Shown: positions 13,527-21,203 of the stretch, one piece after another
Layout of the letters: every line of letters starts with the position of its first letter
Position numbering within the stretch: the stretch's first letter is position 1
Assembly: GCA_013822765.1 (NCBI GenBank)
Contig: PNKY01000017.1
Location: 1-64,000 of the forward strand
Direction: 5' to 3'
Length of the DNA: 64,000 nt
DNA from: Rhodospirillum sp.
Lineage (GTDB): Bacteria > Pseudomonadota > Alphaproteobacteria > Dongiales > Dongiaceae
Program-made: the position numbers and the translations under genes
Notes under the pieces: generated by a model
What the model was told of the DNA's origin: nothing
What the model saw: the letters and a program-made list of their open reading frames with translations, nothing else
The model's database searches: none

Positions 13527-13646
13527 CCGCAATCCATTGAGAATACCCGCAGAGTCGGCGCTGGACACGAGGCGTTTCTTAGCTAGTCTAGCCGCCGCGA
13601 TCAGGCCGTGTGGCGGCCATCCAACGTGGTTCTCTCGAAGCCATTC

Positions 13647-16022
13647 ATGCAGCGAATTCTAGCGGCTCTTTTCTGCGTTTTGATCCTGGCGTGGGTCACG
13701 CCCGTGCACGCCCAGGATTCCGCAGCTGAAAAGCTCCAGACCTGGGAAGCGACACTGACCGACGTCGAGCGGGACCTGAATATCGATCCCGACATGCCGG
13801 AGCAGCGATACGGCGACATTCTGCGGAGGGTCTCGGCACTCATCGCCGACGCGCGCGCATTGCGCAGCGCCGAGCAGCAGCAGACCCAGCCTGCCCGCAA
13901 CCAGCTTGCCCAGCTCGGCCCAGCACCCGCCGCCGGAGCGGCGCCGGAGGATCCGGACATCGCCGCCACCCGCGCGCGCCTGGCCGAGGAAATCTCGCGG
14001 TCTCAGGCGCGAGTGACGCGCGCCGAACTGGTGATTACGCGCGCCCAGGCAATCCAGGATGAAATCGGCCAGCGTGAACAGGCGAACACGCAACGAAAGC
14101 TGTCTGTCCAGGGACCGATGCCCTGGCTGCCCGGGACATGGCGCACGGCCCTGTCGGACGAGAATGCCGTCTATCGCATCCTCCCGCACGGTGCGATGCA
14201 ATGGTGGCGCAACCTGCAGATCGCCGAGATGGACAAGCTGGCCATCGGCCTCAGCACCGGCATTCTGATCGTGGCAGGCCTGCTCGCCTTTCCGGTGCGG
14301 CGGTGGGTCCTGACGAAGTGGGGGCCGGCCACGACGGTCGAGGAGCCGAGCTATTCGCGCCGCATCATCGCCGCCGTTGCGGGCACGGTTGCCCGCATCC
14401 TGCTGCCGGTCCTCGCAATGGCGGCGCTGCTGGGCCTGTTCGGCTTCACCTTGACGCAGCAGGAGTACGATCCCGCCTTCCGCCGGTTCGTGTTCGCGAG
14501 CGGTGTCAATCTGATGCTGTTCTTCACCGTGTCGGGGCTCAGCGTCGCTTGCCTTTCGCCTGACATGCCGGTCTGGCGCATCGTCCCGGTGCCGGCGAAA
14601 GCGGCGGCCAGGCTCGGCCACCGCATCGTGACCGGTGCGGGCCTCCTGACGATGATCGCCATTGTCGGCGCGGCCGTATCCGACGCCCGCGGCGCCCAGC
14701 CTTCGGCAAGCTTCGCCTCGATCCTGACATTCATCGCGGCTCTTATTGCCGCCATCGTTTACGTACCGTGCCTGCGCACCAAATACTGGGTCAGCGATAC
14801 GCATTTCCGGTCGCGGCTCTCCTGGGTGCTGCGCTCGCTGGCGGCGCTGATTTTCATCGCATCGCTGGTCGCCTCGTTCACCGGCTTCTCGTCGCTCGCC
14901 GCGGACCTGCTGAGCGCCTTGTTCCAGTCTGCGCTGCTGATCGGCGGCGCGCTGCTGCTGCGGGAAGTAATCGGCGAAGGCATCCGCGCCTTCATGACGC
15001 CCGGCCGCCGGTTCTACGACGCCGTGTCGCGCGTCACCGGCCTCTCGCCGGAATCGGGCCGGCGCCTGACCTTCTGGGCACGCTTCGCCGCGGACCTCAT
15101 TCTCTGGCCACCGGTGATCTACGGCGTGCTGCTCGCGGGCAAGATCTCCTCGACCCTGCTCAACGCCTGGCTGGTGCGATTCTTTACCCAGATCCAACTG
15201 GGCGACATGAGACTGTCGCTGGTCGACGTGGCGATCGCCATCCTCACTGTCGTGCTCGGCCTGCTGGTTGTCGGCTTCCTGAAACGCTGGGTGCGCGAGC
15301 GGGTGATGCCGAACACCCAGTTCGACCTCGGCATGCAGAACTCGATCTCGACCGGCATCGGTTATTTCGGCGGCCTGATCGTGATCATGATCGCGATCAT
15401 GGTGCTGGGCATCGATTTCTCATCGATCGCCCTGGTGGCCGGTGCGCTCTCGGTCGGCATCGGTTTCGGGCTGCGCACGGTGGTGGAGAATTTCGTCGCC
15501 GGACTGCTGCTGCTGATCGAGCGGCCGATCAAGACCGGCGACTGGATCGTGGTTGGCACCACCGAAGGCATCGTGAAGAGCATCTCCGTGCGCTCGACCG
15601 AGATCGAGACCTTCGACCGGGCTTCGGTGATCGTGCCCAACTCCGCCCTGATTGCGAGCCCCGTGACCAACTGGACTCACAAGAACCGGATCGCCCGCGT
15701 GATCGTGAAACTGAGCGTGCCGCCCAGCACGGACGCGCGGCAGATCGAGCGCATCCTTCTGAATTGCGTCAGCGAAGCCGAGCACGTGATGAAGCACCCC
15801 GCCCCCAGCGTGATCTTCCGCGCGATCGGCGAGGAGAAACTGGATTTCGAGCTGCGCTGCTTCGTCGCCGACACCGACTATTATCTGCCGACGCTGAGCG
15901 CCGTGAACTTCGCAATCGATGCCGCCATGCGGCGGGAACGTATCCAACCGGTCGGCACCCCCTCCGTCAGCCTCCAGCCCGCCTTGGAAGAGTTCTCGCG
16001 CCGCTCAATTGAACCGGCCTGA
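13647..16022 (+). CDS. Large mechanosensitive ion channel, MscS family with DUF3772
   Basis: 791 aa. Signal peptide MQRILAALFCVLILAWVTPVHAQ, then a periplasmic coiled-coil region (about 25-165, DUF3772-like) and multiple membrane helices (about 195-520). The MscS core follows: the pore helix region with SSIALVAGALSVGIGFGLRTVVENFVAGLLLLIE, the beta domain (KTGDWIVVGTTEGIVKSISVRSTEIETFD) and the cytoplasmic alpha/beta domain. Such large MscS/MscK-like channels release solutes on hypo-osmotic shock from the inner membrane. The ATG at 13647 gives the signal peptide; a GTG at 13608 is possible but would bury it. Confidence 0.9.
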   Translation: MQRILAALFCVLILAWVTPVHAQDSAAEKLQTWEATLTDVERDLNIDPDMPEQRYGDILRRVSALIADARALRSAEQQQTQPARNQLAQLGPAPAAGAAPEDPDIAATRARLAEEISRSQARVTRAELVITRAQAIQDEIGQREQANTQRKLSVQGPMPWLPGTWRTALSDENAVYRILPHGAMQWWRNLQIAEMDKLAIGLSTGILIVAGLLAFPVRRWVLTKWGPATTVEEPSYSRRIIAAVAGTVARILLPVLAMAALLGLFGFTLTQQEYDPAFRRFVFASGVNLMLFFTVSGLSVACLSPDMPVWRIVPVPAKAAARLGHRIVTGAGLLTMIAIVGAAVSDARGAQPSASFASILTFIAALIAAIVYVPCLRTKYWVSDTHFRSRLSWVLRSLAALIFIASLVASFTGFSSLAADLLSALFQSALLIGGALLLREVIGEGIRAFMTPGRRFYDAVSRVTGLSPESGRRLTFWARFAADLILWPPVIYGVLLAGKISSTLLNAWLVRFFTQIQLGDMRLSLVDVAIAILTVVLGLLVVGFLKRWVRERVMPNTQFDLGMQNSISTGIGYFGGLIVIMIAIMVLGIDFSSIALVAGALSVGIGFGLRTVVENFVAGLLLLIERPIKTGDWIVVGTTEGIVKSISVRSTEIETFDRASVIVPNSALIASPVTNWTHKNRIARVIVKLSVPPSTDARQIERILLNCVSEAEHVMKHPAPSVIFRAIGEEKLDFELRCFVADTDYYLPTLSAVNFAIDAAMRRERIQPVGTPSVSLQPALEEFSRRSIEPA

Positions 16023-16639: not shown

Positions 16640-19036
16640 ATGGCTGATGACCAGTTCGCCTCCGTTGCGGACGCTCTGCTGCGTATCCAGAGTGCGCGGT
16701 CGCTCGAGGAGGCTGTCCGGCTCGCACAGGACGCGACGCAACGAAGCGCGCAGCCCAGGGGCGGCTTCGACGGCGATGCCCCGTTCCGCTACCTGTTCGA
16801 CCAGAACCCGACCCCGATGTGGGTCTACGAACTGGGCTCGCTGGCTTTTCTCGAAGTCAACCAGGCGGCGATTCAGACCTATGGCTACACGCACGCCGAA
16901 TTTCTCGGCATGCGCATCACCGACATTCGACCTTCCGAGGACGTGCAGAAGCTGCTGGACCTGACGGCGAACCGGCCGCCCGGCCTGCGTTATGTCGGCA
17001 AGTGGCGCCATCGCATCAAGTCGGGGGTGCAGATCGAGGTCGACATCAGTTCCTCCACCATCGAATTCGGCGGTCGGCCGGCAGTGCTGGTGGTGGCGCG
17101 TGACATCACGCAGCAGGTGCAGATCGAGGCGAAGCTGCGCGAGATCGAGACGCGGTTCCTGGCGCTGATCCAGAATGCGCCATTCGTGACCTATGTGAAG
17201 GACACCAAGGGGCACTACGTCTTCTACAATCGCGAGTCCGAGCGCGTCTTCCACCTGGGAACGCGGCACTACTACGGCAAGACGATCCGCGACGTCTACG
17301 ACCCGACCTATGCCGCGTCGATTGTCGAGATGGACCGCAAGGTGGTCGACACCGGCGAGCCGATCCTGCAGGAAGTGCGGATGCCGCCGGACGTGGAGTA
17401 CGAATGGGCGCTGCTGGTCAAATTTCCGATCCGCGACGCGGACGGAAACATCATCGGGATTGGCGGCTTCGACATCGACCGGACCAAGCAGAAGCGCGCC
17501 GAGCTTGCACTCGCCACCAGCGAAGCGAAGCGCCAGGCCATCGAGCAGCGGTTGCGGCGCGTCTTCGACCTGGTCCAGGAAGGCATCTGGATCCACGTCG
17601 ATGGCATGGTGCAGTTTGCCAATCCGGCCGCTGCCCGCCTGTTCGGCGCGAAGGGGCCGGAAGAGTTGATCGGCATGCCGGTCTTCAACATTATCCATCC
17701 GGACGATCGCCAGCGCGCGATCGAGCGAACCCGGAACCTGAAGGACAAACTCCAGCCCCTTCCCTTGACCGAGATGCGCGTCCTCGGGCTCGACGGCAAG
17801 ACCAGGATCGGAGAGCTGCAGGCCGCGCCTTTCATCCAGGATGGCGTGTTGCACGTCATCTCCTCCGGGCGCGACGTGACGGCTCTGCGCGATGCGGAAT
17901 CGCGCCTCCATCAGGCGCAGAAGATGGATGCCGTGGGCCAGTTGACCGGCGGCGTCGCGCACGATTTCAACAATCTGCTGACCGTCATCATCGGCGCGCT
18001 GGACCTTGACCCCGAGCGCATTCCAGCCGAGATGCGTCCGGCCATCGATCAGGCGCTGCGCGCCGCGGAGCGCGGCGCCGCCCTTACCCACCGGCTGCTC
18101 GCCTTTTCCAGGCAGCAGATGCTGGTCACGCGCAGCGTCGATTTCAACCGCTTGATCGGCGACATGGACGAGTTGCTGCGCCGAACGCTGGGCGAGCATG
18201 TCGAGATCGAGCTGAAGCTCGCCGGCGACCTGTGGCCGGCGTTGGCCGACAGCGGCCAGGTCGAGAACTCCCTGCTCAATCTCGCGATTAACGCGCGCGA
18301 TGCAATGCCGGAAGGCGGCAAACTCACGATCGAGACCACCAACGTGCACCTGGACGAAGACTACGCCAGCAGCAACGCGGAGGTGACGCCCGGCGACTAC
18401 GTCCAGATGGCGGTGACCGACACCGGTACCGGCATGCCGCCTGACGTGCTCGCGCATGTGTTCGAGCCATTCTTCACCACCAAGGAGGTCGGCAAGGGCA
18501 CCGGCCTCGGTCTCAGCATGATCTACGGTTTCGCGAAACAATCGGGCGGGCATGCCAAGATCTACAGCGAGGTCGGGCATGGAACGACCGTGCGCCTCTA
18601 TCTCCCCCGCCTGGCCAACGAGTCGCTGAGGTCGGATTCCGCAGCCGTGGCGACGCCGCGCAAAGGCGGCGGCGAAACCATCCTGGTGGTGGAGGACAAT
18701 CCCGATGTCCGCCGCCTGGTGCTGCGCCAGCTGCGCGACCTGGGCTATGAGGTGATCGAAGCGGCAAACGGCCCGCAGGCGCTGAAGATTCTGGACGATG
18801 GCGCGACCATCGATCTCTTGTTCACCGACGTGGTGATGCCGGGCGGCATGACGGGCCGGCAGCTCGCCGAGGCCGCCAAGACGCGCCGGCCGAACCTGAA
18901 GACCTTGTTCACTTCGGGCTATACGGAGGATTCGATCCTGCGGCTAGGCAAGCTCGATCCCGGCGTGCGCCTGCTGTCGAAGCCCTATCGCAAGCACGAG
19001 CTGGCGACGCGGATCAGGGAAGCCCTGGACGGGTAG
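16640..19036 (+). CDS. PAS-containing hybrid sensor histidine kinase
   Basis: 798 aa, with no clear membrane segment, so a cytoplasmic sensor. Order: three PAS domains (about 45-165, 165-290 and 300-425), dimerisation/phosphoacceptor domain with His441 in GGVAHDFNNLL, HATPase domain (NLAINARDAMPEGG, DTGTGMPPDV, GKGTGLGLSMIYGF) and a C-terminal receiver with Asp730 (LFTDVVMPGGMTG). This is the widespread alphaproteobacterial HDFNNLL class, often with an unknown ligand. It is closely related in its last 400 residues to the kinase at 29089-31410. Partner: possibly the receiver at 16098. Confidence 0.92.
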   Translation: MADDQFASVADALLRIQSARSLEEAVRLAQDATQRSAQPRGGFDGDAPFRYLFDQNPTPMWVYELGSLAFLEVNQAAIQTYGYTHAEFLGMRITDIRPSEDVQKLLDLTANRPPGLRYVGKWRHRIKSGVQIEVDISSSTIEFGGRPAVLVVARDITQQVQIEAKLREIETRFLALIQNAPFVTYVKDTKGHYVFYNRESERVFHLGTRHYYGKTIRDVYDPTYAASIVEMDRKVVDTGEPILQEVRMPPDVEYEWALLVKFPIRDADGNIIGIGGFDIDRTKQKRAELALATSEAKRQAIEQRLRRVFDLVQEGIWIHVDGMVQFANPAAARLFGAKGPEELIGMPVFNIIHPDDRQRAIERTRNLKDKLQPLPLTEMRVLGLDGKTRIGELQAAPFIQDGVLHVISSGRDVTALRDAESRLHQAQKMDAVGQLTGGVAHDFNNLLTVIIGALDLDPERIPAEMRPAIDQALRAAERGAALTHRLLAFSRQQMLVTRSVDFNRLIGDMDELLRRTLGEHVEIELKLAGDLWPALADSGQVENSLLNLAINARDAMPEGGKLTIETTNVHLDEDYASSNAEVTPGDYVQMAVTDTGTGMPPDVLAHVFEPFFTTKEVGKGTGLGLSMIYGFAKQSGGHAKIYSEVGHGTTVRLYLPRLANESLRSDSAAVATPRKGGGETILVVEDNPDVRRLVLRQLRDLGYEVIEAANGPQALKILDDGATIDLLFTDVVMPGGMTGRQLAEAAKTRRPNLKTLFTSGYTEDSILRLGKLDPGVRLLSKPYRKHELATRIREALDG

Positions 19037-19056
19037 GCTGACGCCGAAAAAAATTC

Positions 19057-19091
19057 GGCGGCGAGACCCCCGGGACCGGGGCCTCGCCGCC
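19057..19091 (-). terminator. Strong Rho-independent terminator, minus strand
   Basis: A stem GGCGGCGAG / CTCGCCGCC extended inside by a C-run/G-run pairing. On the minus strand it is followed directly by GAATTTTTTTCGG (seven T). It sits 90 bp beyond the end of the 39-aa minus-strand gene and between convergent transcription units, which supports the existence of that small minus-strand operon. Confidence 0.85.
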
Positions 19092-19180
19092 ACCGACCAA
19101 CGAAAGTGGGGACGGATCGCTGGTCTAGTTGCTGAATGCTGACAGGCAAGTCACAGACACTTCAGGGAACGCAAACCTCC

Positions 19181-19300
19181 TCAGGCGAACAGAACGAGCA
19201 GCAGCGCCGCCACCACAGCAATGACCAAGCCACTGCCGATGACATTGTGCCGGCCGCTGTTCTCGCTCAGAAAATCCCGATACGAATTCATTTCCCACAC
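19181..19300 (-). CDS. 39-aa single-span membrane peptide
   Basis: Starts at GTG (19298-19300), seven bases after an AGGAG motif that overlaps the stop of the upstream 127-aa gene. An in-frame ATG three codons later is the alternative start. The peptide has a short polar head (about MNSYRDFLSENSGRHNV) followed by one hydrophobic helix (IGSGLVIAVVAALLLVLFA) that ends the protein, so it should insert with the N-terminus in the cytoplasm. No family recognised. Evidence that it is real: ribosome binding site, coupling to the upstream gene, coherent membrane segment and the terminator downstream. Confidence 0.68.
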   Translation of the reverse strand: MWEMNSYRDFLSENSGRHNVIGSGLVIAVVAALLLVLFA

Positions 19301-19310
19301 GATCTGTCTC

Positions 19311-19694
19311 CTACTTCGCGCGCACCGGCTGGGGCGCATCGCCGTGGCATCTGGTGCGGTGCGGCGCCAAGTCGACCAAGGCTGCCGTGGTCACGGCTGG
19401 CTCTTGCTGCCAGCGCCCGGAACGCATCGACGCGCCGCGACGCGTCACCGCCCGGAAGCGGTCGAATTCGGTCTGCATGATGGCGATACGGGCGAGCGCC
19501 CGGTCGGCCACCGATTTGATCGCATCAGGCAGCACTGGTGATTGGTCCGCCGCGAGGATCGATAAGGCGGAACCGGCCCCCTCCAGCGCTGCCTGACGCG
19601 TCGCCTCGCACACCCGATCGGCCAGCCGAGCCACGCCAAGCCGTGTCTCGGCGACCGCTGGCAGCGATAGTTCCTGTGCTCGCATCTGGGACAT
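19311..19694 (-). CDS. Hypothetical 127-aa helical protein
   Basis: 127 aa. The ATG at 19692-19694 follows GGAG by about five bases. The first two thirds look helical (LPAVAETRLGVARLADRVCE ... AIKSVADRALARIAIMQTEF), somewhat reminiscent of phasin-like helical proteins, but I cannot assign a family. It is followed without gap by the 39-aa membrane peptide, and the pair ends at a terminator. An upstream in-frame extension to 19856 is less likely because the ribosome binding site favours 19694. Confidence 0.55.
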   Translation of the reverse strand: MSQMRAQELSLPAVAETRLGVARLADRVCEATRQAALEGAGSALSILAADQSPVLPDAIKSVADRALARIAIMQTEFDRFRAVTRRGASMRSGRWQQEPAVTTAALVDLAPHRTRCHGDAPQPVRAK

Positions 19695-20057
19695 GACGTC
19701 TCCGCCGATGTGCCAAAAATCCAAAGGGTGGGCTAGCGTCGTAACAGGATGGATTTTGGAGAAACGCCCCGATTCCTCATCCCCCAATTGGGGGAACACC
19801 GGCGCGTTTCCGGAAATCTCCGATTCCAACAACATGGTGTGACTGCAGCGGGCCATCCAGCGGTCAAGCAGCGGAAATCACACAACATTCGGCCCCCGCA
19901 GCGACCGCAGCGATGCGCGTTACACGATTGATTTCAGAGCGAATTTCCATCCCGCATCCGGAAATCCGCGCAAGACGGCGGCGGATGGGTCGTTTATCCT
20001 TCGAGAGTCGATTGAGCGTGTGGGGACATATTTAGCATGCATACCTAGGAGGTTGGC
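19695..20057. other. Divergent intergenic region with palindrome
   Basis: No gene seen. It separates the minus-strand 127-aa gene from the LuxR-type regulator. It contains a perfect 14-bp palindrome (CCCCCAATTGGGGG, 19781-19794), a plausible dimer-binding site about 90 bp upstream of the 127-aa gene, and an AGGAGG ribosome binding site (20047-20052) for the regulator. Confidence 0.6.
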
Positions 20058-21203
20058 TTGGGCTCCGGGACCGTGCCCAAGTTCGAGGACATCGTCGACA
20101 AGATCTACGCGGCAGTAGACGAACGCATCCTCTGGAATGACGTCGCGGGCGACATTGCGCACGCGGCGGGGGCCGTTTCGTGCTCGCTCCAGGTGCGCAG
20201 CGGCGGCAAGGCCAAGATCGTCGGCGCCTCCGGCTACAAGGAGTTCAACCCCAAGCTCTACGAGCAGGAATATGCCCGGCAGGATGTCCGCGCCCAGGTG
20301 CTGATGGGGCTTCCTGCCGACGAGGTCCACCTGCTGCACCACTACATGCCGCAGGACCGTTTCGTTCAATCGACCTACTACAACGAGTTCTTCCGCCGCA
20401 TCACCGAGGGCTATTGGAGCGCCGCGACCTGGATCACGCTCGATCGCGGCGCCGGCGTGGGTCTCGGCATCGGCATTCACCGCTCACGGCGCGCCGACCC
20501 GGAAGACAGGGCGCAGCTCGAAATCCTGAGCACCCTCAGCCCGCACCTGCGGCGCGCCGGACGCCTGCACATGAAGCTGAACGACGTCAAGACGCGCGTC
20601 AGCCAGCTGTCCGATGCTCTCGACCACATCCGCCATCCCGCGATCCTCGCCACCGCCGAAGGGCGCCTGGTGATCGCCAACGAGGCAGCCAGCCGGTTGT
20701 TCGACCCGACCCGCCTGCTGGGCATCGATCCCACCGGCAAGATCGTCACCTGCTCGCCCAAGGCCACCCGGGAATTGTGGGAAGCGCTCGAAGCCGCGTC
20801 TCGGCCGGCGACCCACGCCGGCCCGCAGCAGGCCCGCGACATCATCGTGAACGGCAACGACCAGACCCCGCTGCTCTCGCTCAGCGTCCTGCCTCTGCAT
20901 CGCCGCGAAACGGCGCCGCGCGGCAGCATCGGCGACGGATCGATCATGATCCTGGGCCGCGAGTTCGTGCCGGCGGCGGTGTCGGTGGAAACTTTGCGCA
21001 GCGCCTTCAGCCTGTCGGGCGCGGAAGCGCGGCTGCTCAGCCTGCTGGCCACCGGCGCCACCTTGCGGCAGGCGGCAGAGATCGTCGGCGTCTCCTATTC
21101 GACGGTCCAGTCGCAGATCAAATCGTGCTTCCAGAAGACCGGCACCCACCGCCAGGCCGAGCTGGTCGCGCTCGCCGTCCGGCTCGGTTCAGGCTCCGTC
21201 TAG
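20058..21203 (+). CDS. LuxR-family transcriptional regulator
   Basis: 381 aa. An N-terminal sensory region (about 1-190) and a PAS-like middle (DALDHIRHPAILATAEGRLV, about 188-300) precede a C-terminal LuxR/GerE helix-turn-helix (about 315-376: FSLSGAEARLLSLLATGATL, then AAEIVGVSYSTVQSQIKSCF). It should bind DNA as a dimer in response to an unknown signal. The TTG start at 20058 is favoured by an AGGAGG five bases ahead. Its stop shares CTAG with the convergent MFS gene. The palindrome at 19781 is a candidate target. Confidence 0.85.
   Translation: MGSGTVPKFEDIVDKIYAAVDERILWNDVAGDIAHAAGAVSCSLQVRSGGKAKIVGASGYKEFNPKLYEQEYARQDVRAQVLMGLPADEVHLLHHYMPQDRFVQSTYYNEFFRRITEGYWSAATWITLDRGAGVGLGIGIHRSRRADPEDRAQLEILSTLSPHLRRAGRLHMKLNDVKTRVSQLSDALDHIRHPAILATAEGRLVIANEAASRLFDPTRLLGIDPTGKIVTCSPKATRELWEALEAASRPATHAGPQQARDIIVNGNDQTPLLSLSVLPLHRRETAPRGSIGDGSIMILGREFVPAAVSVETLRSAFSLSGAEARLLSLLATGATLRQAAEIVGVSYSTVQSQIKSCFQKTGTHRQAELVALAVRLGSGSV

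Follow-up and report, generated by a model that had tools for sequence, protein, structure and literature searches.

A regulated transcript on the minus strand of the DNA studied here may give rise to a membrane micropeptide together with a candidate 3'UTR-derived sRNA, and the open reading frame (ORF) upstream of the peptide would then be a leftover duplicate. We put this forward tentatively, at a probability just short of even. The window, that is the whole stretch of 64,000 nucleotides that was analyzed, stems from a genome of 5.8 Mb (G000), and we compared three loci, the one in the window and those of two congeners, G002 and G003; the congeners of the window genome include Dongia deserti SYSU D60009. 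All elements described in an earlier note on this DNA were found, and all lie on the minus strand: both ORFs, a TAGGAG that overlaps the first stop codon and precedes the GTG of the peptide by 7 nt, and the terminator. A dyad and a conserved hairpin in the 3' tail were absent from that note (Table 1). The locus sits between a convergent kinase gene and a divergent LuxR-like gene, and both are its flanking neighbors in G002 and G003 as well. Further away, the window carries a chrB-b RNA motif at 289-342 on the plus strand (55.7 bits vs. a gathering score of 36.5) and, at 13608-16022 on the same strand, a gene for an 804-aa membrane protein, presumably a mechanosensitive channel, which has a counterpart in the G002 block and none in the G003 block.

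Table 1. Features of the locus and its flanking genes, in window positions.
Feature	Positions	Strand	Remark
PAS/histidine-kinase/receiver gene	16640-19036	+	convergent with the locus
381-aa LuxR-like regulator gene, candidate activator	20058-21203	+	divergent; HTH_23 above cut-off, GerE just below
CCCCCAATTGGGGG dyad, candidate LuxR-type activator site	19781-19794	-	invariant and at fixed spacing in three loci
CAAAAT, possible -10 hexamer	19753-19758	-	putative; dyad spacing equal in 3 of 3 loci
127-aa ORF, ATG start	19694->19311	-	divergent copy of an 87-98-aa helical-hairpin protein
39-aa membrane peptide ORF, GTG start	19300->19181	-	intact frame in two congeners
Conserved 3' tail, candidate 3'UTR-derived sRNA	19047-19128	-	hairpin 1 (9 bp, loop UCCGUCCCCACUU) and terminator
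Intrinsic terminator, seven T (AATTTTTTTC)	19092-19056	-	three pairs changed on both sides

We conclude with high confidence that the 39-aa ORF encodes a genuine micropeptide of a narrow, unnamed family. The earlier note had proposed to look for the peptide frame in related genomes, and this check revealed an orthologue at the corresponding position of both G003 and G002, each with 39 codons and without gaps. Pairwise dN/dS values for the three genome pairs were 0.23/1.02, 0.27/1.36, and 0.18/1.65 (first codon excluded), a ratio of about 0.11-0.23, and on this sequence comparison the peptide is under purifying selection. The start at 39 codons is supported since the GTG of the window aligns with ATG in G003 and with GTG in G002, while an internal ATG of the frame is replaced by Leu or Ile codons in the orthologues. 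Mean hydropathy reaches 2.9 over residues 20-37, the single hydrophobic stretch of the peptide. The consensus of the family, MxxxxSYxDVLSExxxxxHVIGSAWIVVxxxAxLLxxFA, likewise combines a polar N-terminus with a hydrophobic stretch that runs up to the C-terminal end, and therefore the peptide is probably C-tail-anchored. Of the earlier note, the peptide with its single hydrophobic stretch, the good ribosome binding site and the terminator are borne out.

A profile built from 11 members found the peptide family at 16 places in 9 of the 17 genomes of the taxonomic family (E<=0.01), 11 of these places being the members used to build it. Five lie in G000, three in G002, two in G003, and one in each of six genomes of another genus. 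In a class-wide sample only 4 of 385 genomes contained a member (E<=0.001) and all four belong to the same taxonomic family, so that, as judged by these searches, the peptide family is seen here solely in its own taxonomic family. One paralogue has kept its neighbors in G000, G002, and G003, and another one in G000 and G002. Neither the peptide nor a strong match to the tail was found in G001, a fourth congener whose genome is 68% complete. Comparison of the peptide with Pfam and NCBIfam returned no credible match (GRA6, E 0.0077, 16.7 bits vs. a cut-off of 27). Membership of either protein in a known family was rejected, the Pfam and NCBIfam matches being weak and unrelated (best E 0.003, for one A2 member). 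A search of PDB sequences hit A2 five times, each time weakly (best E 0.011), and A1 not at all.

The ORF upstream has a different history. The statement of the earlier note that neither protein is recognised is correct for Pfam and NCBIfam, but the taxonomic family has a conserved protein of which the 127-aa protein is a copy. Its residues 1-86/87 match a family of 87-98 aa that is present in 14 of the 17 genomes (E<=0.001), in two of them weakly. A profile search aligned residues 1-86 with E 2.8e-32, a value obtained with a profile that includes the window row, and BLAST against single members in the genus gave E 8.9e-21 to 1.5e-18; tested over its whole length, the ORF is homologous to the family over residues 1-86, and residues 88-127 are without a relative. 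A model of the protein built from four sequences shows a plain two-helix hairpin (helices 3-49 and 55-89, mean pLDDT 66.6) followed by a tail of very low confidence. In the five neighborhoods examined (G000, G002, G003, G013, and G014) the intact paralogue lies divergently beside two genes, which we take, from their first residues, to be yebC and then ruvC; its coordinates are L072 7107-7505, L084 5598-5864, L085 5529-6095, L086 5517-5780, and L088 5346-5609.

These data bear on the idea of a coupled two-gene operon, in which the 127-aa protein and the peptide would be a functional, translationally coupled pair in the window species. Both frames are open in the window, the TAGGAG overlaps the stop, and most residues that are conserved in the paralogous family are retained within residues 1-87. 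However, the G003 copy has a like start followed by a frame change, and its first frame is closed by a stop after 26 codons; the G002 copy has 84 codons in an open frame, but its middle is scrambled and aligns poorly. Translational coupling is thus not conserved, and we rejected functional coupling of both genes as a conserved feature. In both congeners the peptide has its own ribosome binding site. The overlap described in the earlier note holds in the window, but neither this overlap nor the integrity of the 127-aa frame is conserved beyond it; peptide and neighbor are not conserved together in either congener in which the locus was found. Furthermore, the window copy differs from the intact paralogue in G000 by dN 0.47 (dS 0.95), whereas intact orthologues among the three genomes differ by dN 0.05-0.07 (dS 0.31-0.70). 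In the three-way alignment 132 of 262 columns are invariant in the core of the ORF, and 3 of 123, mostly gaps, in its last 40 codons. No relative of the 127-aa gene was found near the nine other loci of the peptide family that we examined. We consider a functional pair unlikely and conclude with fairly high confidence, on these alignments, that the 127-aa ORF is probably a decaying duplicate, a relic, although the copy in the window could still be expressed.

The part of the locus downstream of the peptide is highly conserved. In the three-way alignment 67 of the 82 columns of the tail are invariant and there is no gap (0.82), compared to 69 of 120 columns in the peptide coding sequence (0.57). 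Of 433 non-coding windows of 82 nt within a 6.5-kb block, those off the tail reached at most 0.48, and 7.6% of 5181 coding windows reached the value of the tail. The tail is predicted to fold into a 9-bp stem with a 13-nt loop (UCCGUCCCCACUU), followed by a 15-bp terminator stem, with folding z-scores of -5.4 to -6.2. This terminator is the textbook one with seven T that the earlier note had seen, and it lies just outside the stretch to which that note referred. All 72 of 72 cells are paired across the three sequences. Three pairs changed on both sides, all of them in the terminator and none in hairpin 1, while six slid controls had no such pairs; however, 17 of 500 shuffles matched the pairing counts, and the comparison covers just three sequences. 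On the plus strand the six G-U cells would read A.C, which places the fold in the minus-strand RNA.

This arrangement can also be read in cis: the tail would merely end or protect the peptide mRNA, or bind a protein in cis, and the peptide would be the sole product that matters. A textbook terminator directly after the peptide gene fits such a role well, as do the confinement of both-side changes to the terminator and the failure to find a conserved target site. Pairing, however, cannot explain why the C-rich 13-nt loop is unpaired and yet invariant in all three genomes, in which synonymous sites are near saturation, and this weighs most in favor of an RNA whose action depends on the loop. The tail is also better conserved than the peptide coding sequence, which speaks against a role in cis only. 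We regard the cis reading as doubtful, though quite possible. A conserved structured RNA with a terminator at the end of an mRNA is a feature shared with 3'UTR-derived sRNAs in general, which are in addition separate, stable RNAs with targets in trans. That the tail is a functional RNA element we hold with fairly high confidence; whether it is an sRNA in the strict sense appears to us evenly balanced.

The position of the RNA is also relevant for a type I toxin-antitoxin system, with the hydrophobic peptide as toxin and an RNA at the locus as antitoxin. A short hydrophobic peptide with five copies in G000 and a structured RNA beside it would suit this model. However, the wobble cells place the structured RNA on the same strand as the peptide, a consensus scan for sigma-70-like promoters, which is blind to other promoter types, returned none on either strand of 18900-20100, and one peptide paralogue keeps the same neighbors in three genomes. 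We consider a toxin-antitoxin system very unlikely.

Relatives of the tail are rare. An Rfam scan of 18900-20100 gave one match with E 3.1 (10.5 bits vs. a cut-off of 95.9). A DNA search with the tail gave matches in 46 of 96 genomes at E<=0.1, strong solely in G000, G003, and G002 (9e-44 to 2.5e-20); the next-best match had E 0.001. With a covariance model and strict filters, 16 of 143 genomes matched at E<=0.1 and the same three loci were strong. Next came an element in G002 described below, reverse-strand matches on the terminator, one match in G095 (E 4.9e-5), and weaker ones, of which four were read. Thus, neither search found strong relatives outside the genus. The D. deserti genome G002 contains a second two-hairpin element of the same plan as the tail (G002:C9:10920-11018; L164 1501-1599, plus strand), with a C-rich loop, a terminator-like stem, E 1.2e-7 with the tail model, and a z-score of -3.5; this contig yielded no peptide-family member. 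The 11-nt complement of the loop, GTGGGGACGGA, occurs at 8 places in 3 of 4 genomes, of which 3 are the locus itself, compared to 6 for the reversed control. The other 5 places share no context by blastn, and no conserved target was found.

Upstream of the ORFs, the dyad and its flank (19774-19797) are invariant in 23 of 24 columns among the three loci. Only 12 of 705 non-coding windows of 24 nt match or beat this conservation, and all of them lie at the dyad or in and around hairpin 1 (19088-19120). Conservation is lower on both sides, with 22 of 79 invariant columns from the dyad to the ATG and 72 of 255 in the remainder toward the LuxR-like gene. The exact CCCCCAATTGGGGG sequence is found in 5 of 96 genomes, once each in G000 and G002, twice in G003, and with one copy each in two genomes from other families. 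No mention of the dyad sequence CCCCAATTGGGG was found in the literature searched. The dyad always lies 22 nt before CAAAAT (window and G003) or CAGAAT (G002). LuxR-type activators bind near -41.5, and with this spacing the center of the dyad would be near that position, if transcription starts near 19746 as the hexamer suggests. The protein encoded next to the locus is a plausible candidate for binding (HTH_23, 26.2 bits vs. a cut-off of 24.6; GerE, 22.9 vs. 23.5), and we predict that it binds the dyad.

Other members of the peptide family seem to be controlled differently. At 10 of 13 of these places we found a match of at least 9/10 to the CRP-like dyad TGTGA-N6-TCACA and at 7 of 13 sigma32-like boxes with at least 11/13 matches; each scan was compared with 300 shuffles, and both thresholds were set after the scores had been seen. 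The sites lie upstream of peptide paralogues in L073-L076, L079-L083, and L043-L046. Exact TGTGA-N6-TCACA sites number 16 in G000, vs. 1 for the reversed control. At the window operon (the G000 copy) neither type of site rose above shuffles, the best sigma32-like site having 10/13 matches in the consensus scan, equalled by 20% of shuffles. These scans hint at nutrient or stress control of the peptide family and at a rewiring of the window copy.

In the model that we propose, a short minus-strand transcript, probably activated when the neighboring LuxR-like regulator binds the CCCCCAATTGGGGG dyad, would carry two conserved products, the 39-aa peptide and an RNA of about 80 nt, while the 127-aa ORF would be a leftover duplicate. 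The C-terminal helix of the peptide would insert into the inner membrane, and its polar N-terminus of about 20 residues, probably cytoplasmic, would bind a membrane partner under stress. The RNA, made up of the hairpin with the C-rich loop and the terminator, would probably be cut from the mRNA or accumulate as its 3' end, and its invariant loop would pair with G-rich sites in target mRNAs. In its full form the model describes a LuxR-controlled dual-function transcript of Dongia relatives, with a tail-anchored micropeptide and with the C-rich-loop sRNA as its best-conserved product. Such a transcript would have originated as one member of the peptide family, whose other members tend to have CRP-like and heat-shock-like promoter sites, passed to the control of a different regulator. 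We consider this full form possible and place it on the doubtful side of even.

The locus points to an undescribed micropeptide family, and no paper on small proteins of Dongia was found in the literature searched. It also points to a single transcript that carries a candidate sRNA behind a membrane peptide, and comparison separates the live parts from the dying one: at the level of sequence, it reveals a peptide under selection, a tail that is conserved and paired, a conserved dyad, and an upstream ORF that decays in two congeners. Should the RNA act in trans, a membrane peptide governed by a LuxR-type switch would join the small-protein/sRNA transcripts known from Rhodobacter. The locus gives simple predictions for RNA-seq, and Dongia is a culturable genus.

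Small membrane regulators with a single helix include CydX, KdpF, and AcrZ. The window peptide is like them in size and in its single helix, but unlike them it has no partner complex encoded beside it and no Pfam or NCBIfam match. A closer parallel in gene order is the CIN1 locus (ccaF1-CcsR1-4) of Rhodobacter sphaeroides, where a small protein and then sRNAs are encoded on one transcript with a Rho-independent terminator; CcaF1 is a 71-aa DUF1127 RNA-binding protein, four sRNAs follow ccaF1, and the promoter is an RpoH promoter (PMC10253847). The window locus is likewise alphaproteobacterial, with a small-protein gene, then a candidate sRNA, and a 3' terminator. Three of the four CIN1 features that we looked for were not found, the terminator being the one present: Pfam detected no DUF1127 in either window protein or in A1/A2 members, there is one C-rich hairpin with a terminator instead of several tandem CcsR-type sRNAs, and no RpoH-like promoter rose above shuffles at the window operon, as judged by consensus scan. 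The window product, unlike CcaF1, is a membrane peptide. In R. sphaeroides, 16 sRNAs were predicted in 3'UTRs (PMC8625941), and the source of UdsC is the 3'UTR of a hypothetical-protein mRNA (PMC9779115). The candidate sRNA of the window has the same position, and processing and targets have been shown for the R. sphaeroides sRNAs. GsrN of Caulobacter crescentus has an exposed C-rich loop, its most conserved part, which pairs with the G-tract of the katG leader; it has its own gene in the EcfG regulon, no peptide is described, and BLASTn relatives are confined to Caulobacteraceae (PMC5869019). The C-rich loop of the window tail is highly conserved too, but the tail follows a peptide gene. By analogy, the window locus may work like the R. 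sphaeroides and GsrN systems.
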